Assembly (NCBI RefSeq): GCF_000463015.1
Contig: NC_022234.1
Location: 806,001 to 870,000, forward strand
Source of the DNA: Variovorax paradoxus B4
Lineage (GTDB): Bacteria > Pseudomonadota > Gammaproteobacteria > Burkholderiales > Burkholderiaceae_C
Direction of reading: 5' to 3'
Length of the DNA: 64,000 nucleotides
A program made the translations under genes and the position numbers. The notes below the pieces were generated by a model. The model was given only the letters and a program-made list of their open reading frames with translations, was not told the DNA's origin and did not search any database. Below, in pieces: positions 16,434-33,194 of the stretch; positions within the stretch are counted from its first letter, which is position 1; the number at the start of each line of letters is the position of its first letter.

Positions 16434-17129
16434 ATGGCTATGGATTCGACGACTGACAACAAACTTGGAAAGCGCCACACGCCGCTCACCACGCTTGTCC
16501 TGACCGCCCTGCGCGAGCGCATCATGAGCGGCGCGCTGGCGCCCGGGGAGCGGCTGGTCGAAGGGCGTCTTTCCGAGGAACTGGGCGTCTCGCGCATGCC
16601 CGTGCGCGAAGCACTGCGCGCCCTGGCCGCCGAAGGCATCGTGGCCATCGAGCCGCGGCGCGGCGCAACCGTCACCACCTTCACCCGCGAGCAGATCCAC
16701 GAAATGGTCGAAGTGCGCGCCACGCTCGAGGCACTGAACGCCAAGCTGGCCGCGCGGCGCCACGATCCGGCGCAGATCGCCAAGCTCGAGCGCATCCTGG
16801 CCGAAGGCTCGCAGCTCACCAGCGACGACGACCTGACCCGCATCTCGGCGCTCAACCTGGACTTCCACGAGGCGCTGGGCAACGTGGCCGCCAATTCGGT
16901 GCTGCAGGACATCATGCGTTCGCTGCGCGAGCGCACGGCCCTCTTCTTCACGGTAAACAACCGCGAGCGCATGCGGCAGAACTGGGAAGAGCATGCCGCA
17001 ATCCTGCGCGCGGTGGTGGCGGGCGACGCCGAACTCGCTGCCCTGCTGGCCGCGCGCCACGTCTACAGCGCGGCCGAGCTGCCGCAGTCGATGCAGCAGC
17101 CACAACAGCAGCAGCCCACGCCCGCCTGA
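16434..17129 (+). CDS. GntR family transcriptional regulator, FCD subfamily
   Basis: This 231-residue repressor or activator has an N-terminal winged helix (about 18-82: ALRERIMSGALAPGERLVEGRLSEELGVSRMPVREALRALAAEGIV) and a C-terminal FCD ligand domain (about 90-215) with LNLDFHEALGN and EEHAAILRAVVAGD carrying metal-binding-type His residues. A poly-Gln/Pro tail ends it. It points toward the diiron-oxidase cluster, tail to tail with the cyclodeaminase homologue and only 19 bp from it. It is the best candidate for binding the four TATAC operators between 20.6 and 28.3 kb, because it is the only regulator in the region. A second ATG lies 6 bp inside the chosen start. Confidence 0.86.
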   Translation: MAMDSTTDNKLGKRHTPLTTLVLTALRERIMSGALAPGERLVEGRLSEELGVSRMPVREALRALAAEGIVAIEPRRGATVTTFTREQIHEMVEVRATLEALNAKLAARRHDPAQIAKLERILAEGSQLTSDDDLTRISALNLDFHEALGNVAANSVLQDIMRSLRERTALFFTVNNRERMRQNWEEHAAILRAVVAGDAELAALLAARHVYSAAELPQSMQQPQQQQPTPA

Positions 17130-17148
17130 GCGGGCCCGCGGCCGCGAT

Positions 17149-18072
17149 TCAGCCGCCGCGTTCGCCGAGCCGGCGCCAGGCCAGCCCGGCCAGTGCCACG
17201 TCTTCCAGGCCGACCCCGACCGACTTGTAGACCGTGATCTCGCCCCGGTCGCGCCGACCCGGCACGCGACCGGCCACGAGCTGCGCCAGTTCGACGATCC
17301 TTGCATCGGGCAGCACGCCCGCGCCGGCCTGCACCAGCTCGCCCGCTTCGCGCAGCGATTGCGCACGCCACTCGACCGCCACCACCGACGCGCGCGACAG
17401 CGCCGCGTCGTCCAGTTCGCGCGCGTGCGGCAGGCTGGAGCCGATCGCGGCGACGAAGCAGCCTGCCGGCAGCAGCTCGCCGGGGAAGAGCGGCGTGGTG
17501 GCGCGCGATGCGGTGACGACGATGTCGGCGCCGTCCAGCGCTTCGGCGGCGGCGCCGCACAGCCGCACCGGCACGCCGCACTGCGCGGACAGGCGCTGCG
17601 CCAGCGCGGGCGAAGGCTCCGGCGTGCAGATGCGGATGCTCTCCAGCGCAAAGGCCGCGGCCAGCTGGATGGCATGGGCCTGCCCCTGCGTGCCGGCGCC
17701 GAACAGCGCCAGGTGCCGCGCATCGGCCCGCGCGAGGTGGCGCGCCGCGATCACCGAGCATGCGGCCGTGCGCAGCCGCGTGATGGCGCCGGCATCGAAG
17801 GAGGCCAGCGGGCGGCCGTCCTCGGTGGAGAACAGCAGGATGACGAAGGAGAACTGCCCCTTGATCGTGGTGTAGACCTTGGCGCCCGCCACGCCCTGCC
17901 CCGGAATGACCGCGCCGAGCGTGGACAGCTTGACGCCGCCGGCTTCGGTGCGGATGCGTTCCTGCATCGCCGCGGCGCCCTCGCCGAAGCGAAGGAAGGC
18001 GTCGCGCAGCACCTGCTGCGCATCGGCCGGCGTGACGAGCGCGTCGACCATCGAATCGGAAATGTGTTGCAC
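17149..18072 (-). CDS. ornithine cyclodeaminase / mu-crystallin family protein
   Basis: This 307-residue NAD(P)-dependent protein is of normal family length. It has the substrate-side KVYTTIKG motif, GAITRLRTAACSVIAARHLA and the Rossmann loop LFGAGTQGQAHAIQL (about 124-138), with IVVTASRATTPLF after it. Family members include ornithine cyclodeaminase, alanine dehydrogenase, ketimine and delta1-pyrroline-2-carboxylate reductases. A role in handling a cyclic imine or amino acid in the adjacent pathway is plausible but unproven. It is the last gene of the leftward unit that starts with the diiron oxidase, 18 bp after the TauE/SafE gene. Confidence 0.83.
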   Translation of the reverse strand: MQHISDSMVDALVTPADAQQVLRDAFLRFGEGAAAMQERIRTEAGGVKLSTLGAVIPGQGVAGAKVYTTIKGQFSFVILLFSTEDGRPLASFDAGAITRLRTAACSVIAARHLARADARHLALFGAGTQGQAHAIQLAAAFALESIRICTPEPSPALAQRLSAQCGVPVRLCGAAAEALDGADIVVTASRATTPLFPGELLPAGCFVAAIGSSLPHARELDDAALSRASVVAVEWRAQSLREAGELVQAGAGVLPDARIVELAQLVAGRVPGRRDRGEITVYKSVGVGLEDVALAGLAWRRLGERGG

Positions 18073-18090
18073 GAGGAGCTCTCCGGAAGA

Positions 18091-18840
18091 TCAGGCGCCG
18101 AAGGCTTCGCGCAGCAGCAGCGCGATGGCGCCGAAGGCCGACAGGCCCAGCAGCATGCCGCGCACCGCGCGGCGCGAGACGCGGCGGTTGAGCGGGCCCG
18201 ACAGCGCGAAGCCGGCCACCATCAGCGGCAGCAGCCAGGCGCTCAGCCACAGCTCGTGCCGGCCGAAGCGCCCGACGCTGGCCAGCATCGCGAGCGAGAA
18301 GCTCGCGCCGACGAAGAACACGCAGCCGAGCGTGGCACGCAGCCGCGGCGGCGGCAGGTGCTGCATGACGAGGGCAAAGGGCGGCGCACCGGCCGAGGTG
18401 ATGGTGCCCATCAGGCCCGACGCGACGCCCGCGCCGACCATGTTGCCGCGCGACGCCTCGATGCGGCGCCCGCTCAGGCTCAGCGCCACGCCCGCGAGGA
18501 TGAAGAGCGCGAACATCACGCTCAGCAGTGCGGGCGGCAGCAGCATCAGGCACACCGCCGCGCCGAGCGTGCCGACCACGCGGCCGACGAGCGCCGTACC
18601 CGCGGCGCCCCAGTCGATCTGCTCGAACTCGCGCAGCGCGGACATGAGCGCGAGCGGTCCGCCGAGCGCCAGCAGTGGCCCCGGCGCGAGCTCCGGATAG
18701 AACAGCGCGGCGATGGGCGCCGAGAACATCGCAAAGCCGACCCCGCCGATGCCCTGCAGGCACGCGCCCACCAGCACCATGGCGGCCATGCCGGCGTAGT
18801 GGCCCAGGCTCATGCCCTCGGGCAGCAGCGACGCGATCAT
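18091..18840 (-). CDS. TauE/SafE family membrane exporter
   Basis: This 249-residue polytopic inner-membrane protein of the TauE/SafE (DUF81) family has about eight hydrophobic segments. Two repeats are visible, beginning LVGACLQGIGGVGFAMFSAPI (about 20-40) and NMVGAGVASGLMGTITSAGAPPFAL (about 132-156), with the conserved Gly/Pro pattern. The family exports sulfite, sulfoacetate or other organic anions, and also imports some. Its start overlaps the ferredoxin stop (ATGA), so it is translationally coupled. It may move an anionic substrate or product of the pathway. Confidence 0.82.
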   Translation of the reverse strand: MIASLLPEGMSLGHYAGMAAMVLVGACLQGIGGVGFAMFSAPIAALFYPELAPGPLLALGGPLALMSALREFEQIDWGAAGTALVGRVVGTLGAAVCLMLLPPALLSVMFALFILAGVALSLSGRRIEASRGNMVGAGVASGLMGTITSAGAPPFALVMQHLPPPRLRATLGCVFFVGASFSLAMLASVGRFGRHELWLSAWLLPLMVAGFALSGPLNRRVSRRAVRGMLLGLSAFGAIALLLREAFGA

Positions 18841-19190
18841 CGCGCCGCCGTGCGCGGCTGCCACGAGACGGCGATGTCGCCGTTCACGAAGGTCTGGCAC
18901 GCCATGCGGTAGCCCTGCTTCATCTCTTCTTCGGAGAGGTGCTTTCTTTCCTTGGGCTTGACCGCGTCGGTGTGCTCGAGGCCGGTTTCGATCAGGCACT
19001 TGCAGGTGCCGCACAGGCCGCCACCGCACTTGAAGGGAATGCCGCCCTGCTCGCGCAGCGAAATGCGCAGCAGGTTGCCGCCTTCGGCCGCGGACACGAC
19101 CTTGGCGTTGTTGCTGAGAAAGGTGATCTGGATCATGGAGGCGGTGGAGACGATGGAGGCGAAGGCCGCGGGCTGCGCAGCGGTGTTCAT
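18837..19190 (-). CDS. [2Fe-2S] ferredoxin (second in cluster)
   Basis: This 117-residue plant-type ferredoxin has the cluster ligands CGGGLCGTC (C-x4-C-x2-C) and a fourth Cys in YRMACQTF. The insert with KPKERKHLSEEEMKQG is typical of oxygenase ferredoxins. Two starts are possible. The ATG at 19190 overlaps the upstream stop as ATGA and gives an 18-residue Ala-rich extension; the ATG at 19136 (MIQITFLSN) gives the standard N-terminus. I chose 19190 for the coupling. It probably passes electrons from the ferredoxin reductase at 22.8 kb to the diiron oxidase. Confidence 0.85.
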   Translation of the reverse strand: MNTAAQPAAFASIVSTASMIQITFLSNNAKVVSAAEGGNLLRISLREQGGIPFKCGGGLCGTCKCLIETGLEHTDAVKPKERKHLSEEEMKQGYRMACQTFVNGDIAVSWQPRTAAR

Positions 19191-19480
19191 GTGCGCACCA
19201 GCGCCACGTCGGCGTCGCCCTCGCGCACGAGCTGGCGCAGCGCCTCGCGTGCGAGCGCCACGGTCTCGAACTTCTCGAGGAACTTGGTCGGCACGTGGTT
19301 GACGACCTCGGGCGGCGTCTCGTCGATCACCGGCACCTTGCACTCGGCCTCGAGCTCGGCGATCACGAAGCGCGCCTTGCAGCGGCCGAAGAAGAGATAG
19401 TCGAAGGACTCGAGCGGGCGCAGGCCCTCGACGGGTTCAGTGCGGAACTGGCCGGGCTTGCTGGTCAATATCACGTACAT
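19187..19480 (-). CDS. 97-residue protein of unknown function in the diiron-oxidase operon
   Basis: This protein starts MYVILTSKPGQFRTE and has no recognised domain, signal or membrane segment. It is acidic and compact, with FDYLFFGRCKARFVI in the middle (one Cys) and a helical end (FETVALAREALRQLV). It sits between two ferredoxin genes, 16 bp after the first and overlapping the second, so it is very likely translated in step with them. The position suggests a small accessory or effector subunit of the oxygenase, or a protein handling its product. I cannot assign a family. Confidence 0.7.
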   Translation of the reverse strand: MYVILTSKPGQFRTEPVEGLRPLESFDYLFFGRCKARFVIAELEAECKVPVIDETPPEVVNHVPTKFLEKFETVALAREALRQLVREGDADVALVRT

Positions 19481-19496
19481 GGGAAAGCGTTCGGAT

Positions 19497-19802
19497 TCAG
19501 GCGGCGGCAGTCTCGTCCTGCGCCAGTTCGATGTCGTGCTGCACCCAGAGCTGGCAGGCCAGCCGGTAGCCGGCATCGAGCCGCTCGCCCAGTTGCTTCT
19601 TTTCCTTCCAGTTGGGCGGCGGCAGGTGCTGCGCGCCGGCCAGCACGCGGCAGGCGCACTTGGAGCACTTGCCCATGCCGCACTCGTAGCGCAGGTGCGG
19701 ATACGGAAACTGCTTGATGCCGGCGCGCACGACGAGGTTCGTGTTGTCCTTGACCTCGTCGCGGTAGACCTGGCCGCCTTTGTGGAAGGTGATGATCGGC
19801 AT
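19497..19802 (-). CDS. [2Fe-2S] ferredoxin (first in cluster)
   Basis: This 101-residue ferredoxin has ligands CGMGKCSKC (C-x4-C-x2-C, about residues 41-49) and a later Cys in YRLACQLWV. It differs clearly from the second ferredoxin in the operon: it has a shorter N-terminus and an Asn/Pro/Trp-rich insert (LPPPNWKEKKQLGE). Two ferredoxins for one oxygenase suggest either two electron-transfer steps or two partners. It begins 34 bp downstream of the diiron oxidase gene. Confidence 0.87.
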   Translation of the reverse strand: MPIITFHKGGQVYRDEVKDNTNLVVRAGIKQFPYPHLRYECGMGKCSKCACRVLAGAQHLPPPNWKEKKQLGERLDAGYRLACQLWVQHDIELAQDETAAA

Positions 19803-19836
19803 GCGCGCTCAGCGGGGTACGACGGGACCGGGAGGC

Positions 19837-20568
19837 TCAGGCGGCCTCGAGCACCGGCTGCGCGGCTTCTTCGGTTGCCACGTAGTCGTGGTACAGCGCG
19901 GTGGTGTAGAGCAGGCGCATCTGGGCGCCGATCTCGCAGATCTTCAGGCAGCGCTGCTGCAGCTCGACCGTGTTGGCGTGCTCCAGCACGATCTGGTAGC
20001 CGCGTTCGCCATGGATCTCGTCCGAGACGATGTGCAGGTCGAAGAACTCGACCTCCTCGTCGCTGAAGCCGTACTTCTCGCGCAGCGTGGGCGTCTGCTT
20101 GCGGTAGATCGAGGGCACCTGCGATTCCAGGCCGACCACCAGGCCGGCGACGGCCACGATCGGGTCTTCGCGCATGGCCACCGCGTAGCACCAGCTTTGC
20201 AGGCCGCGCGTCGTGGGCGACATGTTGTCGGGGTCGATCACGCGCTCGCGCGTGGTGCCGCAGGCCTCGGCGAAGCGGATCAGCAGGTCGGTGTGGCGAT
20301 CGCCGCCGATTTCTTCCTCGTACATGTTGGCCAGCAGGAAGTCCTTGGCCTCGGTGTAGCGGTCGGGCATGCGGGCGTACAGGTAGCCGAGGTAGTCGGC
20401 GAAGGGGCCGACATAGTGATAGTGGTTCTCGGCCCAGCGGGCCAGGTGGGCGCGGCTCAGGGTGCCGCCGGCCCAGGCCAGGCTGAAGGGGGACTTGTTG
20501 GCGCTCTTGCCCTTGATGGCGTCTTCAAGGGCAGTGCGGAATTCATCGCGGTTCATGAGTGCGGACAT
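19837..20568 (-). CDS. haem-oxygenase-like diiron oxidase (HDO; CADD/TenA-PqqC fold)
   Basis: This 243-residue all-helical protein matches the iron-containing redox enzyme group of the TenA/PqqC/CADD superfamily. All six diiron ligand positions described for CADD are present with matching spacing: Glu85-x6-His92 (EEIGGDRH), Glu148 (GLESQ), and His179-x3-Asp183-x2-His186 (HIVSDEIH). That makes a metal-dependent oxygenase or oxidase more likely than a thiaminase. The ATG at 20568 follows AGGAG. It is the first gene of a leftward unit containing two ferredoxins. A TATAC operator lies 65 bp upstream. The substrate is unknown; family members cleave C-C or C-N bonds or oxidise amines. Confidence 0.87.
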   Translation of the reverse strand: MSALMNRDEFRTALEDAIKGKSANKSPFSLAWAGGTLSRAHLARWAENHYHYVGPFADYLGYLYARMPDRYTEAKDFLLANMYEEEIGGDRHTDLLIRFAEACGTTRERVIDPDNMSPTTRGLQSWCYAVAMREDPIVAVAGLVVGLESQVPSIYRKQTPTLREKYGFSDEEVEFFDLHIVSDEIHGERGYQIVLEHANTVELQQRCLKICEIGAQMRLLYTTALYHDYVATEEAAQPVLEAA

Positions 20569-20632
20569 GGCGGAGGCTCCTGGAGTGGCTGGAGGTGGCT
20601 GACGAAATGCGGCAAGAGCTTGCGGCTCTTCA

Positions 20633-20645
20633 GTATACTGTATAC
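20633..20645. promoter_or_regulatory. operator GTATACTGTATAC upstream of the diiron oxidase
   Basis: This is a 13-bp palindrome, perfect except for the central base. It lies 65 bp before the diiron oxidase start and is one of four related sites in the cluster. It probably binds the GntR/FCD regulator. Confidence 0.62.
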
Positions 20646-20729
20646 CAACATTCAGGTCGACGCAAGCGACTGACATTTTGGTTTGCCTCAGACGAGGTCT
20701 CGTTTGCGTCCAGCTTGAAAGTCTTGTTG

Positions 20730-20740
20730 GTATACAGTAT
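20730..20740. promoter_or_regulatory. operator GTATACAGTAT upstream of the aldehyde dehydrogenase
   Basis: This is the same motif as at 20633, in opposite orientation, 36 bp before the aldehyde dehydrogenase start. Both arms of the divergent promoter region therefore carry a site. Confidence 0.6.
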
Positions 20741-20775
20741 CCTTCAATCTGAATCATCTCAAGCCGACGACCCCC

Positions 20776-22236
20776 ATGACCCTCGCACCCGCTCCCCTTT
20801 TCCAGAACCACGTCGATGGCGCCTGGGTGTCCAGCGTGACCGGCCGCACCTTCGAGAGCACGAACCCGGCCGATGCCCGCGAGGTGGTCGGCCGCTTCCA
20901 GGCCTCGTCCGCCGAGGACGCCCGGGCGGCCGTCGCCGCCGCGGCAGCCGCGTTCGACGGCTGGAAGAAGACACCCATCTCCAGGCGGGCCGCGATGCTC
21001 AACGCCGCGGCGCTGTACCTGGAGATGCACGCGGCGACATTCGCGGAGGAACTGACGCGCGAAGAGGGCAAGCCCCTCGCGCAGGCCAAGGACGAGTTCC
21101 TGCGGTCGGCCCAGACGCTGCGCTTCTATGCGGTGGAGGGCCAGTCCTTCTCCGGCGAGACCTTCCCGCAGGACGATCCGGACATGGTGGTCTACAGCCA
21201 GCGCGAGCCGCTGGGCGTGGTCACGGTCATCAGCCCCTGGAACTTCCCGGTGTCGATCCCCGCGCGCAAGATCGCGCCGGCGCTGATCACGGGCAACACG
21301 GTGGTCTTCAAGCCTTCGTCCGACGCGCCGCTGTCGGGCCTGCGCCTGGCCGAGGCCTTCGTGCAGGCCGGCCTGCCCAAGGGGGTGCTGAACTTCATCA
21401 CCGGGCGCGCGTCGGAAGTCGGCCCCGCGATCACCGAATCTCCGGCCGTGCGCGCCATCTCCTTCACCGGCTCGACCGCGGCCGGCGAGCAGATCCACCG
21501 CGCCGCCGCCATGACCACGCGCACGCAGATGGAGCTCGGCGGCAAGAACCCGCTGATCGTGATGGACGACGCCGACCTCGACAAGGCGGTCGACCTCGCC
21601 GTCAAGGGCGGCCTCTCGCTCAGCGGCCAGGCCTGCACCGGCACCAGCCGCGTGCTGGTGATGAAGGGCGCGAAGGCCGCCTTCACCGACAAGCTGGTGG
21701 CCAAGGTGCGCGCGCTCAGGATCGGCAGCGGCATGGCGCCGGGCATGGACATGGGCCCGCTCGCGACGAGGAAGCAGCTGGAGACGGTGCTGGCCTACAT
21801 CGCCATCGGCAAGTCCGAAGCCACGCTGCTGTGCGGCGGCGAGCCGCTCACCGAGGGCGACCTTGCCCACGGCTTCTATGTGAGCCCGGCCATCTTCACC
21901 GACGTGACGCAGCAGATGCGCATCGCGCGCGAGGAGATCTTCGGCCCGGTGATCGCGCTCATCGAGGTCGACAGCTACGAAGACGCGATCGCCAAGGCCA
22001 ACGACACCGAATACGGCCTGTCCGCCGCCATCGCGACGAGCAGCCCGGTGCATGCGCACCGCTTCGCGCACGACATCCAGTCGGGCACGGTGAAGATCAA
22101 CCGCACCACCACCGGCAACCTCGTCAACGCGCCCTTCGGCGGCCTCAAGCGCTCCAGCACCTCGACCTTCCGCGAGTCGGGCCGCACCGGCCTGGAGTTC
22201 TACACGCAGATCAAGACCGTCTACCGCGGCTGCTGA
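20776..22236 (+). CDS. NAD(P)-dependent aldehyde dehydrogenase (succinate-semialdehyde dehydrogenase-like)
   Basis: This 486-residue ALDH has an intact active site: PWNFP (154-158), general base Glu253 (MELGGKNP), nucleophile Cys287 (GQACTGTSR), and the EEIFGPV motif. It most resembles the group oxidising short semialdehydes (succinate, glutarate or 2-oxoglutarate semialdehyde). It is the first gene of the rightward unit and starts 208 bp from the diiron oxidase, sharing the operator region. The likely role is oxidising an aldehyde made by the oxygenase step to an acid entering central metabolism. Confidence 0.88.
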   Translation: MTLAPAPLFQNHVDGAWVSSVTGRTFESTNPADAREVVGRFQASSAEDARAAVAAAAAAFDGWKKTPISRRAAMLNAAALYLEMHAATFAEELTREEGKPLAQAKDEFLRSAQTLRFYAVEGQSFSGETFPQDDPDMVVYSQREPLGVVTVISPWNFPVSIPARKIAPALITGNTVVFKPSSDAPLSGLRLAEAFVQAGLPKGVLNFITGRASEVGPAITESPAVRAISFTGSTAAGEQIHRAAAMTTRTQMELGGKNPLIVMDDADLDKAVDLAVKGGLSLSGQACTGTSRVLVMKGAKAAFTDKLVAKVRALRIGSGMAPGMDMGPLATRKQLETVLAYIAIGKSEATLLCGGEPLTEGDLAHGFYVSPAIFTDVTQQMRIAREEIFGPVIALIEVDSYEDAIAKANDTEYGLSAAIATSSPVHAHRFAHDIQSGTVKINRTTTGNLVNAPFGGLKRSSTSTFRESGRTGLEFYTQIKTVYRGC

Positions 22237-22265
22237 TCCCTCCACCCTCATCCTGCAAAGCCCCC

Positions 22266-22745
22266 ATGAAAACCACACTCAAGCTCGAACTCGAAGAAGC
22301 CCGCCTGATGATCGACGCCGCCATCCGCAAGGCGAACGAGATCGGCGTGCTGGAAACCATCTGCATCGCCGACGACGGCGGCTTCCCGATTGCCATGGAC
22401 CGCATGAACGGCGCGCGCATCACCGGGCCGCAGATCGCGTGGAACAAGGCCTTCACCGCGGCCGGCCACAAGCGCTCGACGCACCTGTTCACCACGCCGC
22501 CGAACGGGCCGGCGCTGCCGGGCAACGAGGCCTTCGGCATCCAGCTGAGCTTCGAGGGGCGCTTTGCGGCCTTCGTCGGCGGCTTTCCGATCGTGGTGGA
22601 CGGCAACGTCGTGGGCGGCGTGGGCCTGTCGGGCGGCAACGGCGAGCAGGACACGAAGTGCGGCCTGGCCGCGCTGCAGGCGCTGCACGAGCTGCTCGAG
22701 GCCAAGGGCCACACCGTGACGGTCGAGGCCGACATCAAGAAGTAG
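22266..22745 (+). CDS. GlcG/HbpS family protein (haem-binding type)
   Basis: This 159-residue cytoplasmic protein of the GlcG/HbpS (DUF336) family starts MKTTLKLELEEARLMIDAAIRKANEIG and carries the conserved DDGGFPIAMDRMNGA, AWNKAFTAA, GGFPIVVDG and VGGVGLSGGNGEQD blocks. Family proteins occur in many catabolic operons; some bind haem or cobalamin, others appear to be enzymes on small acids. It lies 29 bp after the aldehyde dehydrogenase gene in the same unit. Its role here is undetermined. Confidence 0.85.
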   Translation: MKTTLKLELEEARLMIDAAIRKANEIGVLETICIADDGGFPIAMDRMNGARITGPQIAWNKAFTAAGHKRSTHLFTTPPNGPALPGNEAFGIQLSFEGRFAAFVGGFPIVVDGNVVGGVGLSGGNGEQDTKCGLAALQALHELLEAKGHTVTVEADIKK

Positions 22746-22772
22746 CGCGGCACCTTCGACGACGGGATCGCC

Positions 22773-23780
22773 ATGGCCTACCGCATCCAGCTGCTCGAGA
22801 CAGCGCAGACCTTCATTGCGCAAGCGGGCGAATCGGTGCTCGAAGCCGCGCTGCGCCAGGACCAGCGCCTGCCGCACGAATGCCGCTTCGGCGGCTGCGG
22901 CACCTGCCGCATCAGGCTCGTCGAAGGCGCGGTGCGCTACGACGAGTTTCCGCCCGGACTCACGCCCGAAGAGGCCGCCGAAGGCTATGCGCTCGCCTGC
23001 CAGGCGCAGCCCGAGAGCGACCTGGTGATCAGCGCCGCGCGGCGCCTGCCGCCGTGCTCCGAACCGGCGCGCCACGTCGCCACGGTGAAGGCCGTGCGGC
23101 CGCTGGCCGAGGACGTGCTGCACCTCGCGCTCGAGGTGCCGTGCGAGGCCGAGCTGCTCTACCGCGCCGGCCAGTACATCAACATCCTGCTGCCCGACGG
23201 CAGCCACCGCAGCTTCTCGATGGCCTCGCGGCCGCACCCGCAGGTGCTCGACTTCCACATCCGCCGCATCCCCGAGGGCCGCTTCACCAGCGGCGACGCG
23301 GCCCGGCTGCAGCCCGGCGACCGGCTGCCGGTCGAGCTGCCGCACGGCACCTTCTGCTACCACGCGGAGGACTACCGTCCGCTGATCATGGTGGCCACCG
23401 GCACCGGCCTGGCGCCCATCAAGAGCATCCTCGAGTCGCTGATGGACGACGAGGACTGCCCGCCGGTGAGCCTCTACTGGGGCATGCGCACCGAGGCCGA
23501 CCTGTACCTGCACGACGAAATCCAGGCCTGGGCCGGGCGCCTGTGCGACTTCCGCTACGTGCCGGTGCTCTCGCGCGCCGGGGCCGGCTGGAACGGACGG
23601 CGCGGCCACGTGCAGGATGCGGTGCTGGCGGACGTCGACGACCTCTCGGAACACGCCATCTACCTCTGCGGCTCGCCTGCGATGATCGGCGACGCGAAGC
23701 GCGCCTTTCTCGCACGCGGCGCGAGCATCGACCATCTGTACAGCGACAGCTTCACCTTCCAGTCGGCCATCGCGGCCTGA
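22773..23780 (+). CDS. ferredoxin-NAD(P)H reductase with N-terminal [2Fe-2S] domain
   Basis: This 335-residue class IB-type oxygenase reductase has three domains in order. A plant-type [2Fe-2S] domain (about 1-90) has CRFGGCGTC and the fourth Cys in ALACQAQ. An FAD-binding barrel (about 95-195) has RSFSMAS. An NAD(P) domain (about 200-335) has MVATGTGLAPIKSIL and LCGSPAMIG. It is the only reductase in the cluster, so it is the probable electron source for the two ferredoxins and the diiron oxidase, although it is on the opposite transcription unit. Confidence 0.88.
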   Translation: MAYRIQLLETAQTFIAQAGESVLEAALRQDQRLPHECRFGGCGTCRIRLVEGAVRYDEFPPGLTPEEAAEGYALACQAQPESDLVISAARRLPPCSEPARHVATVKAVRPLAEDVLHLALEVPCEAELLYRAGQYINILLPDGSHRSFSMASRPHPQVLDFHIRRIPEGRFTSGDAARLQPGDRLPVELPHGTFCYHAEDYRPLIMVATGTGLAPIKSILESLMDDEDCPPVSLYWGMRTEADLYLHDEIQAWAGRLCDFRYVPVLSRAGAGWNGRRGHVQDAVLADVDDLSEHAIYLCGSPAMIGDAKRAFLARGASIDHLYSDSFTFQSAIAA

Positions 23781-23807
23781 CGGTACGCACGCACAAGGAC
23801 ACGATCC

Positions 23808-24587
23808 ATGGACCTCGGCATCGCACAACGCAAGGCGCTGGTTTTCGGCGGCAGCCGCGGCATGGGGCGCGCCTGCGCGCGGCAGCTCGCGATGGAGGGC
23901 GTGCAGGTGACCATCGCCGCGCGCACCCGAGCCACGCTGCAGCAGACCGCCGCCGAGCTCCTGGCCGAGACCCGCGTGCCGGTGGCCTGGGTGGTGGCCG
24001 ACATCACGACCGCGGCCGGGCGCGATGCCGCGCTCGCCGCCTGCCCTTCGCCCGACATCCTGGTCAACAACGCCGACGGCCGGCCGCCCGGCGACTTCCG
24101 CGACTGGAGCAGCGCCGACTGGCACGAGGCGCTCGACGCCATGATGCTCGGCCCGATCGAGATGATCCGCCGCACCGTCGACCCGATGATCGAGCGCGGC
24201 TTCGGCCGCATCGTGAACATCGTCTCGCGCAGCGTGAAGACGCCGCAGGCCGAACTGGGCCTGTCGAACGGGGCACGCTCCGGGCTGGTCGGCTTCGTGG
24301 CCGGGCTGGCGCGCCAGACGGTGCGGCACGGCGTGACGATCAACAACATCCTTCCGGGCGTGTTCGCGACCGATGCGCAGCGCCATCACATCGAAGGCCT
24401 GATGAAGACCGAGGGCAAGTCGTTCGAGCAGCTGTGGGACGAGCGCGGCCGCAACAACCCGGCGGGCCGCTTCGGCCGCGCCGAGGAGGTCGGCGCGCTG
24501 TGCGCCTACGTGTGCTCGGCGCATGCCGGCTACATCACGGGGCAGAGCCTGCTGATCGACGGCGGGGCCTACCCGGGGACCTTCTAG
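23808..24587 (+). CDS. SDR-like protein lacking the catalytic Tyr-Lys pair
   Basis: This 259-residue classical short-chain dehydrogenase fold has a glycine loop FGGSRGMGRA (about 13-22), NNADG (about 87-91) and Ser140 (NIVSRS). At the position of the YxxxK motif the sequence reads LGLSNGARSGL, so Tyr is replaced by Ser153 and Lys by Arg157. This matches a known subgroup of beta-ketoacyl-reductase-like SDRs with an imperfect tetrad. Ordinary reductase chemistry is therefore uncertain. It is the last gene of the rightward unit and ends 8 bp from the convergent hydrolase. Confidence 0.82.
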   Translation: MDLGIAQRKALVFGGSRGMGRACARQLAMEGVQVTIAARTRATLQQTAAELLAETRVPVAWVVADITTAAGRDAALAACPSPDILVNNADGRPPGDFRDWSSADWHEALDAMMLGPIEMIRRTVDPMIERGFGRIVNIVSRSVKTPQAELGLSNGARSGLVGFVAGLARQTVRHGVTINNILPGVFATDAQRHHIEGLMKTEGKSFEQLWDERGRNNPAGRFGRAEEVGALCAYVCSAHAGYITGQSLLIDGGAYPGTF

Positions 24588-24594
24588 GGCCGCT

Positions 24595-25278
24595 TCAGGC
24601 CAGCGCCGGCGCCTTCGCCAGCCGGCTGGCAACCTCCTCCACGCCGAGCACGTCACCGAAGAACAGCATCCAGTTGTGCAGCGAATGCACGTGCTCCTCG
24701 GGCGTGACGGCCGACAGCGCGTCCTCGACCATCACGGTGGCGTAGTTCATCATCATGGCGTCGCGCGCGGTCGATTCGCAGCACACGTTGGTCACGGTGC
24801 CGCCGATCAGCACCGTCTCGATGCCGCGCGCCTTCAGCACTTCATTCAGCGTGGATGAGCCCGGCACCAGGGCGCTGTAGCAGCGCTTGATCACGCGCGG
24901 GTCCTCCGGCTGCACGTCGAGCCCGGGCGCGATCTCGAAGCCGGCATGCGCGCGGCCGAGCTCGCGCAGCCGGCGCGCGCTGCGCTCGGGCGTGAGCATG
25001 TGGGCATGGTGGTGCGACCAGAAGCTGTCGGCGCCGTCCGAGCAGGTCTGCACCCAGATGACGGTGCCGCCCGCCTCGCGCAGCGCGGCTGCCAGCTGGT
25101 TGACCTTGCCGAAGGTGGCGCGCGCCGGCGCGCACTCGCCCATGAAGCCCGGCTGCGTGTAGTAGTTCTGCAGGTCCACCACCACGAAGGCGGTGCAGCC
25201 GGCGTCGAAGCGCGGATACGGGTGCAGGCTGCCCTGCCGCGCCATCACGCGCTCGACGATCCATGCGGGAAATTCCAT
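24595..25278 (-). CDS. cysteine hydrolase (isochorismatase-like family)
   Basis: This 227-residue alpha/beta hydrolase of the isochorismatase-like group has the catalytic triad positions: Asp in VVVDLQNYYTQPG, Lys in DPRVIKRCYSAL, and Cys in TNVCCESTARDAMMMNY. Members hydrolyse amides and carbamoyl compounds such as N-carbamoylsarcosine, ureidoacrylate and nicotinamide. It lies 35 bp downstream of the ABC permease on the same strand, so it is probably the last gene of the uptake operon. An amide or carbamate intermediate in the pathway is suggested. Confidence 0.85.
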   Translation of the reverse strand: MEFPAWIVERVMARQGSLHPYPRFDAGCTAFVVVDLQNYYTQPGFMGECAPARATFGKVNQLAAALREAGGTVIWVQTCSDGADSFWSHHHAHMLTPERSARRLRELGRAHAGFEIAPGLDVQPEDPRVIKRCYSALVPGSSTLNEVLKARGIETVLIGGTVTNVCCESTARDAMMMNYATVMVEDALSAVTPEEHVHSLHNWMLFFGDVLGVEEVASRLAKAPALA

Positions 25279-25313
25279 CGTGTTCTTTCCGTTCGATGAG
25301 AGAGAGAGCAAGG

Positions 25314-26186
25314 TCAGCCGTAGCGGCGGGCCAGATGGTGCTCGACGCGGGCGATGACGAGGTACATCAGCGCCGACATCAGCGCCAGCACCACGATCGC
25401 CGTCATCACGATGTTCAGCTTGAACACCTGGCTGCCGTTGACGATGAGAAAGCCCAGGCCTTCGCTGGCCGACTGGAACTCGCCCACGATCACGCCGACC
25501 AGCGACAGGCCGATGTTCATCTTGAGCGCGGCGATCAGCGTCGGCACGCTGCCGGGCAGCACCACCATGCGCAGCACCTGCGCTCGGCTCGCGCCGAGCG
25601 TGGTCGCGAGCTTGATCTTGTTCGGGTCGGTGGACTGGAAGCCTTCGTAGGCCACCATGATGGTCACGAAGATCGCGATGGCCACGGCCATGCCGTACAC
25701 CGAGTACTCGGAACCGAGCCAGATGTAGAAGATCGGCACGAAGGCGATCTTCGGCATCGCGTTGGCGACCACCAGGAACGGATCGAGCACCTTGTTCGCG
25801 AAGCGCGACCACCACAGCCCCGCGGCGATGGCGATGCCGAACACCATGCTGAGGACGAAGCCCACCACGGTCGCCTTGAAGGTCGCCCAGGTGTGCGTCA
25901 GCAGGTTGCCGTTGTGCAGCAGGTCGACGAAGGTCGGCCACAGCGCGCTCGGATAGCTGGTGAGCATCGGATTGACGACCTTGGTCTTCGCGAGGATTTC
26001 CCACAGGCTGAAGAAGGCGGCCAGCAGCAGCAGCCGGCTCGCGAGCACCAGCGTCTTCTCGCGGCGCTGGCGCGCCAGCCATTTCGCGTAGGCCGCGCTC
26101 GGAACCTTGGCGGGTGTGGCCGCGGGGAGCGCGGCGGCGGACGCGGGCATCGTCATCGGGGGGACTGCATTCATTTCAGCGCTCAT
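25314..26186 (-). CDS. ABC transporter permease (NitT/TauT type)
   Basis: This 290-residue inner-membrane permease is of the SsuC/TauC/BPD_transp_1 family. After a long Ala/Pro-rich cytoplasmic N-terminus it has about six membrane segments from residue 48 onward. The EAA loop is visible as TTLGASRAQVLRMVVLPGS (about 192-210), followed by IGLSLVGVIVGEF. It lies 3 bp after the ATPase gene. The family imports sulfonates, nitrate, thiamine precursors, aromatic acids and similar compounds. Confidence 0.87.
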   Translation of the reverse strand: MSAEMNAVPPMTMPASAAALPAATPAKVPSAAYAKWLARQRREKTLVLASRLLLLAAFFSLWEILAKTKVVNPMLTSYPSALWPTFVDLLHNGNLLTHTWATFKATVVGFVLSMVFGIAIAAGLWWSRFANKVLDPFLVVANAMPKIAFVPIFYIWLGSEYSVYGMAVAIAIFVTIMVAYEGFQSTDPNKIKLATTLGASRAQVLRMVVLPGSVPTLIAALKMNIGLSLVGVIVGEFQSASEGLGFLIVNGSQVFKLNIVMTAIVVLALMSALMYLVIARVEHHLARRYG

Positions 26187-26189
26187 GGT

Positions 26190-26999
26190 TTATCCCTCGA
26201 CATGCACGTCGAGCTCGTCCCAGAGCGTGCTGAAGTAGGTGTTGAATTCGGGCAGGGCCCGTGCTTCGAAGGGCGTGGGCCGCTTGCCGTGGCTCGGGAA
26301 CCGCATCAGGTGCTCCGACTTGATGCGGCCGGGGCGGCGCGAAAGCACCACGACCCGGTCGGTCATGGCGATCGCCTCGCCGATGTCGTGCGTCACGAGC
26401 ACCACCGACTTGCCTTCGCTGCGCAGCACCTCGACCACCTCGTCGGCAATCGCCAGGCGTGTCTGCGAGTCGAGCGCGGAGAAGGGTTCGTCGAGCAGCA
26501 CCACGTCGGGGTTGGTCACGAGCGTGCGCGCCAGGGCCACGCGCTGGCGCATGCCGCCGGACAGCTGGCGCGGGTAGTGGTGCAGGAAGTCGCCCATGCC
26601 GCACTTGTGCAGCAGGTGGATGGCGCGCTCGCGCGCCTCGCGCATGTCGCGCTTCTGGATCTGCGCGCCGAGCAGCGCGTTGTCCAGGATGCTGCGCCAC
26701 TCGTAGAGATAGTCCTGCTGCAGCATGTAGCCGATGCTGGGCGAAGGCCCGGTGACGGGCCGGCCGTCGACCGTGACGCTGCCGCCCGAAGGCTCCAGGA
26801 TGCCGGCGATGATCGACAGCAGCGTGCTCTTGCCGCAGCCCGACTGGCCGATGATGCTGACGAACTCGCCCGGCGCCACGGCCAGCGAGATGTCGTCGAG
26901 CGCCTGCGTCTCGCCCTGCAGCGTGAAATAGCGCAGCGACACGTTGCGCACGTCGATGCGCGGCAGGCCACCCGCCGCGCGAAGGTTCGCCGCCGCCAT
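26190..26999 (-). CDS. ABC transporter ATPase (NitT/TauT type)
   Basis: This 269-residue nucleotide-binding subunit has Walker A GQSGCGKST (about 50-58), the Q-loop in YMLQQDYL, signature LSGGMRQRVALAR, Walker B VVLLDEPFSALD, and the His switch in VLVTHDIGEA. The ATG at 26999 shares its A with the last base of the binding-protein stop (TGATG), so it is translationally coupled. It powers uptake by the adjacent permease and binding protein. Confidence 0.9.
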   Translation of the reverse strand: MAAANLRAAGGLPRIDVRNVSLRYFTLQGETQALDDISLAVAPGEFVSIIGQSGCGKSTLLSIIAGILEPSGGSVTVDGRPVTGPSPSIGYMLQQDYLYEWRSILDNALLGAQIQKRDMREARERAIHLLHKCGMGDFLHHYPRQLSGGMRQRVALARTLVTNPDVVLLDEPFSALDSQTRLAIADEVVEVLRSEGKSVVLVTHDIGEAIAMTDRVVVLSRRPGRIKSEHLMRFPSHGKRPTPFEARALPEFNTYFSTLWDELDVHVEG

Positions 27000-28030
27000 C
27001 ACTTGGCCTTCGCGGCGAAGTCGGTCACGACGACCTGCTCGTACTTCACGCGCTTGGCGCTTTCGAGCACGCCACTGGCCGCGAGCATGTCCTGCAGCTG
27101 CTCGACGGCGGCCTTCTCCACCAGCGGCGAGGTCTTCCACAGCTTGTAGCCGCGGTAGCGCTCGATCGCCTTCGCCAGTTCGGGCTGCGACATGCCCGGG
27201 AAGTACTCGGCGATCTGCTTGGCCAGGTCGGCGGCCGGCGCGGACTGCACGTACTTCTGCGCCCGCGCCACCGCGTTCGTCCAGGCCTGCAGCACGTCAG
27301 GGTTCTTCTGCATGAAGGCGTCGGTGGTGGTGAACACCGTGTAGTCGACCGGGCCGACCTCGCTGCCGATCGACGCCAGCACATGGCCGTTGCCGTCCTT
27401 TTCCAGGGTGCCCGCCTCGGGCTCCAGGAAGATGGCGTAGTCGTTCTGGCCGGCCAGCCAGGCGCCCGTGCGCGCGGCCGGGCCGATGTTGTTGACCAGC
27501 TTCAGGTCCTTCTTCGGGTCCAGACCGTGCTTGCGCAGAGCGGCTTCGAGGAAGACATCCGGGTTGGAGCCCGGACGGAAGGCCATGACCGACTTGCCCC
27601 GGAGCTGGTTCCAGTCGAACTTGCCGGTGACCGGCTTGCGCGACATCAGCAGGAAGCCGTCGGTGGCGGTCAGGCCGGCGAAGATCTTCGGTTTGGTGGG
27701 AGATTCGCTGTTGGCGACGTAGATGGAGGCCTCAGGCCCGATCAGCACGATGTCGGCGCTGCCGGACAGGAGCGCGGCCATGCCCTTGTCGGTGCCCTGC
27801 GAGGTCTTCATGCCCACGTCCAGCCCGGCGTCCTTGAAGTAGCCCTGGTTCAGGGCGACGTACATCGGCACGTAGAGCACGGAACGGATCACCTCCTCGT
27901 AGCGCACCTTGACGAGCGGCTTGGCCGGCTGGGCTGCGGCGCCACCGGCGAGGCCGAGCAGGCCGGCGGCAAGGGCAAGGGCGGGCGCGAGGCGGGCGAG
28001 GCCCGAGGAACGGCGCGGGAACAGGGACAT
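26999..28030 (-). CDS. ABC transporter substrate-binding protein (NMT1/THI5-like)
   Basis: This 343-residue periplasmic binding protein starts MSLFPRRSSGLARLAP and has a signal peptide ending near AGGAAAQ/P. Typical motifs of the NitT/TauT/THI5 group are present: VLYVPMYVALNQGYFKDAGLDV, LLSGSADIVLIGPEA and LRGKSVMAFRPGSNPD. The many aromatic and acidic residues do not identify the ligand. It is the first gene of the leftward ABC operon, with a TATAC operator 29 bp upstream, so import is probably controlled together with catabolism. Confidence 0.88.
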   Translation of the reverse strand: MSLFPRRSSGLARLAPALALAAGLLGLAGGAAAQPAKPLVKVRYEEVIRSVLYVPMYVALNQGYFKDAGLDVGMKTSQGTDKGMAALLSGSADIVLIGPEASIYVANSESPTKPKIFAGLTATDGFLLMSRKPVTGKFDWNQLRGKSVMAFRPGSNPDVFLEAALRKHGLDPKKDLKLVNNIGPAARTGAWLAGQNDYAIFLEPEAGTLEKDGNGHVLASIGSEVGPVDYTVFTTTDAFMQKNPDVLQAWTNAVARAQKYVQSAPAADLAKQIAEYFPGMSQPELAKAIERYRGYKLWKTSPLVEKAAVEQLQDMLAASGVLESAKRVKYEQVVVTDFAAKAK

Positions 28031-28058
28031 GGGATGGGCTCCGTGAGTGAAATAGTCA

Positions 28059-28068
28059 ATACAGTATG
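28059..28068. promoter_or_regulatory. operator ATACAGTATG upstream of the ABC operon
   Basis: This is a weaker copy of the TATAC-A-GTAT motif, 29 bp before the binding-protein start. It fits co-regulation with the diiron-oxidase genes. Confidence 0.5.
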
Positions 28069-28264
28069 CAAAACATGGGCCAGAAAGCAATCCTGCACCG
28101 CAACATGCGGGCGTGGCACCCTGCTGTGGTGCGCACTGAAAAAGCGCCTCTTCTGCCCCTTCTTTCCTCGAAATCGCGCACTTTTCGAGCGCACTCGCAC
28201 CAAGCCGACGCATGCCGGGCTGAGCTCCCGGTGTTTACCCCATGGCCCACTTTTTGCGGTGTTG
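28069..28264. other. divergent intergenic region, no gene seen
   Basis: This stretch between the binding-protein and permease genes (28031-28335 overall) is visibly less GC-rich than its surroundings. Apart from the two operator copies near its ends I see no conserved coding frame; it should contain both divergent promoters. Confidence 0.6.
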
Positions 28265-28277
28265 GAATACTGTATAC
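28265..28277. promoter_or_regulatory. operator GAATACTGTATAC upstream of the permease
   Basis: This is the fourth copy of the motif, close to a full match, 59 bp before the permease start. Confidence 0.58.
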
Positions 28278-28335
28278 CGTTTGAGCCAGTTCCTTCTCTC
28301 CAGAACAACCCTATAACTCCACGAGGTCCCCCAAG

Positions 28336-29871
28336 ATGGATTCCATCACCATCACCGCCGCCCACTGGGTCTACCTGCTGGGCGTCGGTGCCATCGTGCT
28401 GACGATGATCTTCCGCGCCAACGTCGTCGTGCCGTCGATCATCGCCACCTTCTGTGTGGCCCTGGCGTGGACGCACAGTCCCATCGCCGCACTGGGCAGC
28501 ATTTTCAATGCGAGCTTCGTCGCGGCGAAGGAGCTGTTCAACATCTTTCTGGTCATCGCGCTGATGACCGCCCTGCTCAACTCGCTCAAGACGCTGCGCT
28601 CCGACATCCGCATGGTCGAGCCGTTCCGCGCGGTGGTCAAGAACGGCCACGTCGCCTACCTGGTGCTGGCCGCCGTCACCTACGGCATCTCGATGTTCTT
28701 CTGGCCGACGCCGGCCGTGCCGCTGGTGTCGGCCGTGCTTCTGCCGGCGGCCATCGCGGCCGGACTGCCGCCGCTGGCGGGCGCGGTGGCCATCGCGATC
28801 GCCGGCCAGGGCATGGCGTTGTCGTCGGACTACGTGATCGGCGTGGCGCCGGGTATCAGCGCCAAGGCCGCCGGAACCAGCGCCGCGCTGGTCGGCCACC
28901 ATGCGCTGGTGCTCTCGCTGATCGTCGGGGGCATCGCGCTGGTGCTCGCCTACCTGCGCTTGCGCAGCAGCATCCGGCCGGCCGGCAACGACCTGCTGGT
29001 GCAGTGGCAGGCACAGTCGGTCGACACGACCGAGGCCGCCGCGATCGAGGAAGGCCACAGCTTCGACAAGGCCGAGATCGCGCGCGGCACGCGCCACGAC
29101 AAGGCCTCGTTCAGCGACTCGGACATCCAGCGCGAATTCGCCCTGGTCGAGGCGAGGCGCGTCAAGTGGTCCAAGTTGTTCGCGGTGCTGACGCCGCTCG
29201 CATTTCTTGCCGTGATCGCGGTGATGGTCCTGCCCAAGCTCGCAAGCGGCCTGCCCGAGCTCAAGGGCGGCGATGCCGCGGCCCTGGTGGGCGGCGTCGC
29301 CGGGCTGCTGATGATCCTCGCCTCGCTGGCGGCCAACGGCCCGCGCAAGATGCTCGACGTGAGTGCCGATCACATCACCGACGGCTTCGTCTTCGCCTTC
29401 AAGGCCATGGGCTCGGTGCTGCCGATCGCCGGCTTCTTCTTCATGGGCGCGAGCGAGACCTTCTCGGCCATCCTCTCGCTGCCGCCGGACCACAGTCCCA
29501 GCCTGCTGTTCCAACTGGTGCAAGGTGCGGAGCACTGGATTCCCAAGAGCCAGTTCTTCGTCGCCTTCGGCGTGCTGGTCGTCGGCATGATCACCGGCAT
29601 CGACGGCTCGGGCTTCTCGGGCCTGCCGCTGACCGGCGCGCTGTCGGGTGCGCTGGCACCCACCGTGGGCCTGGAGCCCGCCACGCTGGCGGCAATCGGC
29701 CAGATGGGCGCGGTCTGGACCGGCGGCGGCACGCTGATCGCGTGGTCCTCGCTGATCGCCGTCGCCGGCTTCGCCCGCGTCCCGGTGCTGGACGCCGTGC
29801 GGGCGCTGGCCCTGCCGGTGCTCACCGGGCTGGCCGTCGCCACCGTGAGCGCGGTGCTGCTGTGGGGTTGA
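28336..29871 (+). CDS. multi-pass permease of the ion-transporter type
   Basis: This 511-residue inner-membrane protein has about 11-12 hydrophobic segments. A central cytoplasmic loop (about 225-275: charged, EEGHSFDKAEIARGTRHDK) divides two halves, as in GntP/CitMHS-type transporters. Motifs include SMFFWPTPAVPLVSAVLLPAAIAAGLPPLAGA and IDGSGFSGLPLTGALSGALAP. I cannot name the substrate. It carries the same operator as the catabolic genes, so it may be an alternative importer or exporter for the same compound. Confidence 0.75.
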   Translation: MDSITITAAHWVYLLGVGAIVLTMIFRANVVVPSIIATFCVALAWTHSPIAALGSIFNASFVAAKELFNIFLVIALMTALLNSLKTLRSDIRMVEPFRAVVKNGHVAYLVLAAVTYGISMFFWPTPAVPLVSAVLLPAAIAAGLPPLAGAVAIAIAGQGMALSSDYVIGVAPGISAKAAGTSAALVGHHALVLSLIVGGIALVLAYLRLRSSIRPAGNDLLVQWQAQSVDTTEAAAIEEGHSFDKAEIARGTRHDKASFSDSDIQREFALVEARRVKWSKLFAVLTPLAFLAVIAVMVLPKLASGLPELKGGDAAALVGGVAGLLMILASLAANGPRKMLDVSADHITDGFVFAFKAMGSVLPIAGFFFMGASETFSAILSLPPDHSPSLLFQLVQGAEHWIPKSQFFVAFGVLVVGMITGIDGSGFSGLPLTGALSGALAPTVGLEPATLAAIGQMGAVWTGGGTLIAWSSLIAVAGFARVPVLDAVRALALPVLTGLAVATVSAVLLWG

Positions 29872-31763: not shown

Positions 31764-32177
31764 CGTGGTCTCCAAACAGGAAATAGACTGCAGATGAAGG
31801 TTCATCTATCCAGCCCCGGCACGCCAGGGCTGCACGATGTTGCATCTTCAAAGCGTTTTCCACGCTGGGGGAAACCACACGAAGTGAAAAGCGGGGATTT
31901 CGGCCTTGCCCGAGCCGCTGAACATCGAGAATTGAGCGCACTTCAGTGCATGTGGCTGCCGATGGCGGCCCTGCCGGGCAAGGATCAGGGCGGTCGGGAG
32001 CCTTCGAGCAGTTGATCGGCCAGGCCTTGGATGTCGCCGCGCATGGGCGACACCGGAGATGATCACGATCGAGCCATTGGAGTTTGACCCGCCAAAGGCG
32101 CTGCGACCTGCTCCAGCCATGCTGAATCGCGGGATTTGAACTGGCCCCCAGAAGCTGGACGAACTTCCAAGGGTTCC
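31764..32177. other. intergenic region ahead of IS debris
   Basis: No convincing gene is visible. A 26-codon frame beginning near 32057 (MITIEPLEFDPPKA) ends just before the IS3 fragment and could be the tail of an older gene, but I cannot identify it. Codon-like structure is otherwise absent and the GC content falls. Confidence 0.5.
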
Positions 32178-32328: not shown

Positions 32329-33194
32329 TCAAATAACGCGCAATGCTGCAGCCTTCAGGATGGCCGGCCCAAGCTGGTCGCGCAACAGCGCAACCACATC
32401 GGCCAACGGGTGCACCGCCATATCGTTCTTCCTGAGGAACGCGAGCCACAGCGCTTGGCGTGACGGATCATTCGCGAACTCGTGGGTCAGGCCTACGGGC
32501 AGCGAACTCGGCACTACCATGCCACGCCGGGTGAACGTTGCGGCAATGGCGCTGGCCAGCGTGTCGACATCCAGGGCCTCGCGCTCCAGCAGGACCGACA
32601 GGTCCAGATAGTCCTTGAGCCGGCTGTTGGTCATGCCCAGCACGGCAACCGCGTGCAGCTTCTCCGAAACGACGGTATAGACCGGGTATGTGCGCAGGCA
32701 TGGCGCCGGCAGATCAGCGATCAGGACTGGATAGACCGCCTCGACCGGCTCTGGCGTGACGGCGTCACCAAAGCCGATGTCGATCTGCGTTTGCAGCGCG
32801 CCCTCGCAATGTCGGCATCGATCAAGACCCGCGCCCCGGCATAACCGGCGTCCTTGCGGATTTCCTCGACCTTGACCGAGGCCGGATCGAAGGTGATGCC
32901 ATCATCCACTTGCACGCTCGCGATATCCCGAAAGGTCTGGGCAATGGACGCCAGATCGCTTGCCCCGAAGCCGAGCAGGTCGGCATCCCGCGTCGCGCGG
33001 TGCGGCATGTCGTACCAGAGGGTGAACAGCAGTGCGCCCTTGAGCACAAAGCGATCGGCATGCGCCGACTGGCCCAAGCGATAGAGCATGCGCTCCAGGG
33101 CGAAGCGCACCAGCACCTGGTTGAAGTCGACGCCTTGCGCCTTGGCGATATTGAGCAGACGCGCCCGCACGGACGCCGGAAGCTCCTTGCTCAT
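32329..33194 (-). pseudogene. AbiEii nucleotidyltransferase toxin, frameshifted
   Basis: The 5' part (33194 to about 32805) encodes MSKELPASVRARLL..., with the nucleotidyltransferase block FVLKGALLFTLWYDMP...RATRDADLLGFG. At about 32800-32808 the frame shifts by two extra bases (GCGCGC in place of a shorter run). The 3' part then continues in another frame as LQTQIDIGFGD ... TYPVYTVVSEKLHAVA ... SRLKDYLDLSVLL to a stop at 32329. Together they form a normal-length AbiEii (type IV toxin, DUF1814). As read, the toxin is broken after about 130 residues. Its ATG overlaps the antitoxin stop. Confidence 0.75.

Follow-up and report, generated by a model that had tools for sequence, protein, structure and literature searches.

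In Variovorax paradoxus B4, a cluster of genes built around a haem-oxygenase-like diiron oxygenase (HDO) lies in a window of 64,000 nucleotides (the whole stretch of DNA that was analysed, C1:806001-870000 of a 7.15 Mb genome; positions below count from its first letter). This is a real, widespread and co-regulated catabolic cluster. Judged by its gene content and gene order, it is, with a probability of roughly 70%, the Variovorax version of the cluster for the catabolism of dipicolinic acid (pyridine-2,6-dicarboxylate), and its HDO is proposed to be the dipicolinate 3-hydroxylase, the counterpart of DipD. The new part looks to be the link between the two, as DipD would be a catabolic HDO fed by ferredoxins. 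On one side of a divergent promoter the cluster holds a GntR/FCD regulator, an ornithine cyclodeaminase (OCD)-type protein, a TauE/SafE permease, the ferredoxin Fdx1, a protein of 97 residues (p97), the ferredoxin Fdx2 and the HDO; on the other side are an aldehyde dehydrogenase (ALDH), a GlcG/HbpS protein, a ferredoxin reductase (FdR) and a degenerate short-chain dehydrogenase/reductase (SDR), followed by a hydrolase, an ATP-binding cassette (ABC) importer and a second permease.

The HDO is a protein of 243 amino acids (19837..20568, minus strand) that matches PF14518 at 1e-36, in a search whose query carried 14 extra upstream residues. Its residues E85, H92, E148, H179, D183 and H186 are invariant in all 18 aligned sequences and align with what we take to be the ligands of CADD, a set of three histidines and three carboxylates, which bears out the complete CADD-type ligand set claimed in the original prediction. 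The predicted structure is the seven-helix haem-oxygenase fold, its top structural matches being CADD, PqqC, UndA, HrmI and TenA proteins, and the presumed active centre is a dimetal site for the activation of O2.

A contig scan yielded 499 HDO loci, and all locus counts given here refer to the best 80 of them, mostly from Burkholderiales and Bradyrhizobium, with the presence of a gene decided at an identity threshold of 38-60%, set gene by gene. It is very improbable that the HDO is a biosynthetic relative of CADD/PabS or PqqC with catabolic genes adjacent by chance: CADD and PqqC are the nearest named models and pyrroloquinoline-quinone synthase is among the public names of its relatives, but the scores of 90.8 bits for CADD (TIGR04305, cut-off 200) and 49.1 bits for PqqC (TIGR02111, cut-off 240) are far below the cut-offs. 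Two residues of CADD, Tyr27 and Lys152, are named in a recent review (PMC13108848), and in the alignment these donor positions are occupied by Ser29 and Gln158 in the HDO. The missing donors refute a self-sacrificing mechanism of the CADD type, and chance proximity is refuted by the nearly complete co-occurrence of the ferredoxins, ALDH and GlcG with the HDO in the 80 loci. Over these loci, which come from many genera, HDO identity is 89-97%, and this suggests one substrate; the four best named loci are Variovorax strains, with identities of 96-97%. Among the matches listed, the public names in the HDO clade include TenA family transcriptional regulator and pyrroloquinoline-quinone synthase, and also aldehyde dehydrogenase. 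The genome has two further PF14518 genes beyond the limits of the window (G000 C1:359688-360191 and C2:2648335-2648787), and one Cupriavidus basilensis locus (L021) has two HDO copies in one cluster, at 5831 (minus) and 9926 (plus), each 90% identical to the HDO of the window.

The HDO is accompanied by its own electron transfer proteins in a setting of uptake and breakdown, as had been proposed. Fdx2 (19497..19802, minus) and Fdx1 (18837..19190, minus, start uncertain) are plant-type [2Fe-2S] ferredoxins matching PF00111, with the CX4CX2C motif kept in 103/103 orthologue rows of Fdx2 (repeats of a locus included) and in 76/79 rows of Fdx1. FdR (22773..23780, plus) is a ferredoxin-NAD(P) reductase with three domains, for Fe-S, FAD and NAD (PF00111, PF00970 and PF00175), which scores 201 bits against the BenC model, below the cut-off of 430. 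The GlcG/HbpS-like protein (22266..22745, plus) belongs to a haem-binding family (PF03928, 1e-31). In 78 loci its gene adjoins that of ALDH, with both read in the same direction. ALDH (20776..22236, plus) resembles alpha-ketoglutaric semialdehyde dehydrogenases, its best NCBIfam model being NF042993 (554 bits, below the cut-off of 770), and the catalytic motifs GQxC (90/90 rows) and ELGGK (89/90) are kept, in line with the intact semialdehyde-type enzyme read from it before.

Between the two ferredoxin genes lies p97 (19187..19480, minus), a candidate accessory or effector protein of 97 amino acids that matched no family in Pfam or NCBIfam and whose best sequence match in the PDB has an E-value of only 0.59. 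It is poor in cysteine and has no Fe-S motif, and neither cysteine nor histidine is found among its 20 invariant or near-invariant columns. The predicted model is beta-rich and confident (pLDDT 93.9), and none of the chains aligned with it is a convincing structural neighbour. This leaves p97 as a candidate effector or scaffold.

The membership of the cluster is well kept. The core consists of HDO (80 loci), GntR (80, at an identity of at least 40%), Fdx2, p97, Fdx1 and GlcG (79 each), ALDH (78), the second permease (74) and FdR (62); optional are TauE (50), OCD (34), the hydrolase with the ABC genes (9) and SDR (4). All 79 loci that have the trio keep the order Fdx2-p97-Fdx1, with the three genes on a single strand and within 1.5 kb, the only locus without it being L014, in which the HDO match begins at base 614 of the contig. 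The HDO is directly upstream of Fdx2 in 49 loci and elsewhere in 30, and such shuffling of blocks with membership kept argues for function over mere common descent. The original prediction placed all genes in a single pathway, but SDR, the hydrolase and ABC genes, OCD and TauE do not belong to the recurring core. Its own refuting condition, HDO homologues that occur without the ferredoxins, ALDH and transporter, is borne out in part: the ferredoxins stay with the HDO, while ALDH and the transporter do not always do so.

The distribution of the cluster is patchy. In a Burkholderiales sample of 399 genomes, including that of the window, the HDO was found in 10 (E-value of at most 1e-30) and p97 in 9 (at most 1e-4), all 9 within the 10. 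A phylum sample of 398 genomes gave 5 with HDO (at most 1e-25) and 4 with p97 (at most 1e-3), p97 being again nested in the HDO set, and the hits G000, G194 and G350 are common to both samples. In a sample around genome G703 each of the two proteins occurs in 1 of 165 genomes, the centre genome itself, so this is no independent test. Among 36 other genomes of the genus, HDO identity is 96-97% in three and 76-77% in two, and the remaining matches are at most 28%.

Co-regulation is indicated by the word ATACWGTAT, of which the window holds 4 copies against 0.01 expected. They flank two divergent promoter regions: ATACTGTAT at 20635..20643 and ATACAGTAT at 20732..20740 lie on the HDO side and the ALDH side of the first, and ATACAGTAT at 28059..28067 and ATACTGTAT at 28267..28275 on the side of the substrate-binding protein (SBP) and on the permease side of the second. 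The motif proposed earlier as one operator for all units is therefore real, but it covers only these two promoter regions; there is no copy before GntR at 16434, and Fdx2, p97, Fdx1, TauE and OCD would come under its control only if they are transcribed from the HDO promoter. In the 68 long loci in which the word was counted there are 42 copies, distributed over 19 loci, and all 42 lie near the start of HDO, ALDH, SBP or permease, in a region set at -30 to 350 bases. The reader of these sites would be the GntR/FCD protein (16434..17129, plus; PF00392 and PF07729), a proposed repressor and counterpart of DipR.

The original prediction described the system as new, and this part of it probably does not hold. 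The closest known system is the dip gene cluster of Alcaligenes faecalis JQ135 (Mu et al. 2022, Appl Environ Microbiol 88:e00360-22). This cluster for dipicolinic acid reportedly has a novel monooxygenase, DipD, which is said to hydroxylate dipicolinate to 3-hydroxydipicolinate with O2 and to lack similarity to known oxygenases. The other products are reportedly a haem-binding protein (DipF), a ferredoxin reductase (DipG), ferredoxins (DipJ, DipK and DipL) and a negative regulator (DipR), and the cluster is said to be widespread in Alpha-, Beta- and Gammaproteobacteria. The candidate counterparts here are the HDO, the GlcG/HbpS protein, FdR, both ferredoxins and the GntR protein, and from this likeness we infer that the genes may be orthologous to dip genes. 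The order HDO-ALDH-GlcG-FdR (for example in L079 and L009) would read D-E-F-G, with E as ALDH being a guess, and Fdx2-p97-Fdx1 would read J-K-L. There are differences too: p97, the middle one of the three small genes, lacks an Fe-S motif, while DipJ, DipK and DipL are reportedly ferredoxins; Variovorax adds SDR and the hydrolase/ABC unit; and the oxygenase is clearly an HDO here, while DipD is reportedly unlike known oxygenases. The dip study is cited in PMC11494986.

In the proposed pathway, uptake would take place by the conserved permease and, in Variovorax, also by the ABC importer. Electrons would pass from NAD(P)H through FdR (FAD and [2Fe-2S]) to Fdx2 and Fdx1 and on to the diiron site of the HDO, which would use O2 to convert dipicolinate into 3-hydroxydipicolinate, GlcG and p97 acting as presumed accessory components of the oxygenase. 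The hydroxylated ring would be cut between C2 and C3, leaving the C5 compound alpha-ketoglutarate semialdehyde, which ALDH would oxidise to alpha-ketoglutarate; the other product, oxalyl amide or oxamate, could be split by the cysteine hydrolase, and the optional OCD-type reductase could catch an imino acid. The HDO might act twice, no core gene being an obvious ring-cleaving enzyme, and GntR would repress the genes at the ATAC(A/T)GTAT sites. Three unrelated Pfam families of amide hydrolases are represented in 31/80 loci (isochorismatase type 9, gamma-glutamyltranspeptidase (GGT) type 6 and amidase signature 20, a locus with more than one being entered once in a tally made by hand). This count drops a GGT match of 40% (L032) and an amidase match of 38% (L074); GGT-type oxamate amidohydrolases are known. 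In one locus (L053) an aspartate-dehydrogenase-type gene, for an enzyme of alpha-imino acids like the OCD relatives, follows Fdx1. An Achromobacter is said, in an older report, to oxidise dipicolinate via 3-hydroxydipicolinate to alpha-ketoglutarate, and our literature search on bacterial oxidation of dipicolinic acid did not find this report.

Homarine (N-methylpicolinate), suggested as a candidate from the start, has a similar ring, and N-methylglutamate could arise from it if the OCD protein reduced an N-methyl ketimine; a conserved homarine pathway has been published (Nat Microbiol 2026 11:1531-1546), in which, according to a citing paper, Mgd takes part. OCD, however, is found in only 34/80 loci, and nothing specific to homarine was found in the cluster, in a comparison that did not include the published homarine operon. 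The homarine operon is reportedly common in abundant marine groups, in contrast to the Burkholderiales and Bradyrhizobium that make up most of the 80 loci. Catabolism of homarine is thus improbable here, and dipicolinate probably fits the cluster better.

Several observations weigh against the dipicolinate assignment. Many rows of the HDO protein matches are nameless, and none is named Alcaligenes faecalis among the 120 matches listed by each search (one of these searches used a piece from L069 lacking the N-terminus). The best 80 loci are weighted towards close relatives. The core genes include no dedicated ring-cleaving enzyme, which leaves the ring-opening step unexplained, and 49/80 loci have none of the three amide hydrolase families in the stretch covered. 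FdR is missing in 13/68 long loci, and all 13 belong by name to Bradyrhizobium or other Alphaproteobacteria. The exact operator word is absent in 49/68 long loci, which show an enrichment of words containing GTATAC upstream of permease, HDO, TauE, ALDH or GntR. Genome G216 (L105) has an HDO of 83% identity with GlcG, Fdx2 and Fdx1 in a different gene setting, and does without p97, which also speaks against p97 as an effector. Two Variovorax loci (L088 and L089) carry a sister module with HDO at 76-77%, Fdx2 at 70%, p97 at 51-57% and Fdx1 at 70-73% identity; next to it there was no match to the main-type GlcG, permease or GntR. The trio is followed there by a reductase that lacks an Fe-S domain of its own and by an alpha/beta hydrolase, and the neighbours are a LysR regulator and a different ALDH (35%), all named by eye. 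In the tree the HDOs of these two loci group with that of G216 with moderate support (92/70), and the HDO clade may serve more than one substrate.

Taken together, the sister settings make the unit of HDO, ferredoxins and p97 look like one oxygenase placed in different settings. The same machinery might act on another substrate, such as another pyridine or N-heterocyclic carboxylate or amide, with dip as a sister system. Members of the clade may differ in the substrates that they accept, as sister HDOs at 77-83% identity occur in different settings with other ALDH and reductase genes, and the hydrolase and ABC genes downstream of a shared operator could point to an amide. We consider this explanation unlikely, since the gene list and order closely fit the reported dip list, including GlcG and the three small genes, and the HDO is so nearly identical over the best 80 of 499 loci and many genera. 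More distant is an HDO homologue of 44-46% in genome G568 (L110, 8769-9563, plus) beside a gene that is Rieske-type by eye; the ferredoxins of the window were not matched in the 18.5 kb read, and this is possibly another HDO branch with a Rieske partner.

The remaining genes are mostly optional, and domain matches agree with the original description of the two ferredoxins, the three-domain reductase, GlcG, OCD, the degenerate SDR, the cysteine hydrolase, the ABC genes and TauE. The OCD/mu-crystallin protein (17149..18072, minus; PF02423) is ketimine-reductase-like, its best NCBIfam model being the pyrroline/piperideine-2-carboxylate reductase PRK06141 (160 bits, cut-off 322), and it is followed by the TauE/SafE-type permease (18091..18840, minus; PF01925). 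The SDR (23808..24587, plus; PF13561) has a Rossmann fold without the YxxxK motif and occurs, within the 80 loci, only in the four Variovorax ones. The isochorismatase-type cysteine hydrolase (24595..25281, minus; PF00857), for which amide hydrolysis is proposed and RutB is the best NCBIfam model, below its cut-off, always occurs together with the ABC genes. These encode a NitT/TauT-type permease (25314..26186, minus; PF00528), an ATPase (26190..26999, minus, start approximate; PF00005) and the SBP of SsuA/NMT1 type (26999..28033, minus; PF09084). The near-core second permease (28336..29871, plus) has no match in Pfam or NCBIfam. Beyond it lie a tannase/feruloyl esterase family gene (29934-31805, minus; PF07519), found with the cluster in 0/80 related loci, and, by eye, an apparently split AbiEii-type nucleotidyltransferase gene in two halves (32329-32643 and 32721-33194, both minus).

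Bacterial endospores contain dipicolinate as one of their major constituents, and its breakdown is consequently relevant to carbon and nitrogen in soil. If the assignment is true, the HDO family, known mainly from biosynthesis, gains a catabolic ring hydroxylase in many soil Proteobacteria, one that databases name as a TenA regulator or PQQ synthase. The accessible text of a 2026 review of HDOs counts about a dozen validated enzymes, mainly of fatty and amino acids and of natural product synthesis, and contains neither 'dipicolin' nor 'pyridin' (PMC13108848). No text joining the dip and HDO literatures was found in the literature searched, which leaves out most subscription papers. According to the same review, no protein effector is required by the HDOs that have been studied (PMC13108848), a statement that the cluster would put to the test.

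Compared with known systems, the HDO described here differs from the self-sacrificing p-aminobenzoate synthases CADD and PabS by the absence of Tyr27 and Lys152, by its own electron transfer genes and by its catabolic context. It resembles MboA/MboB of mangotoxin biosynthesis, in which an HDO has a partner reductase with flavin and [2Fe-2S] (PMC13185094), a redox partner of MboA also being noted in the HDO review (PMC13108848); MboA/MboB differs in performing a biosynthetic peptide desaturation, and no separate ferredoxin is mentioned in the accessible part of that source (PMC13185094). It is a tentative and rather doubtful proposal that this is the first HDO to work like a multicomponent monooxygenase, namely a pyridine hydroxylase fed by ferredoxins and gated by p97 as a new family, with a module of five parts (HDO, Fdx2, p97, Fdx1 and reductase) serving at least two pathways, one in the main clade and one in the sister clade of other Variovorax, and with DipD joining the HDO superfamily. 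The likeness to the bacterial multicomponent monooxygenases lies in the combination of a hydroxylase, an electron chain and possibly a small non-redox effector; their diiron hydroxylase, however, is ferritin-like, whereas its place is taken here by an HDO of PF14518.

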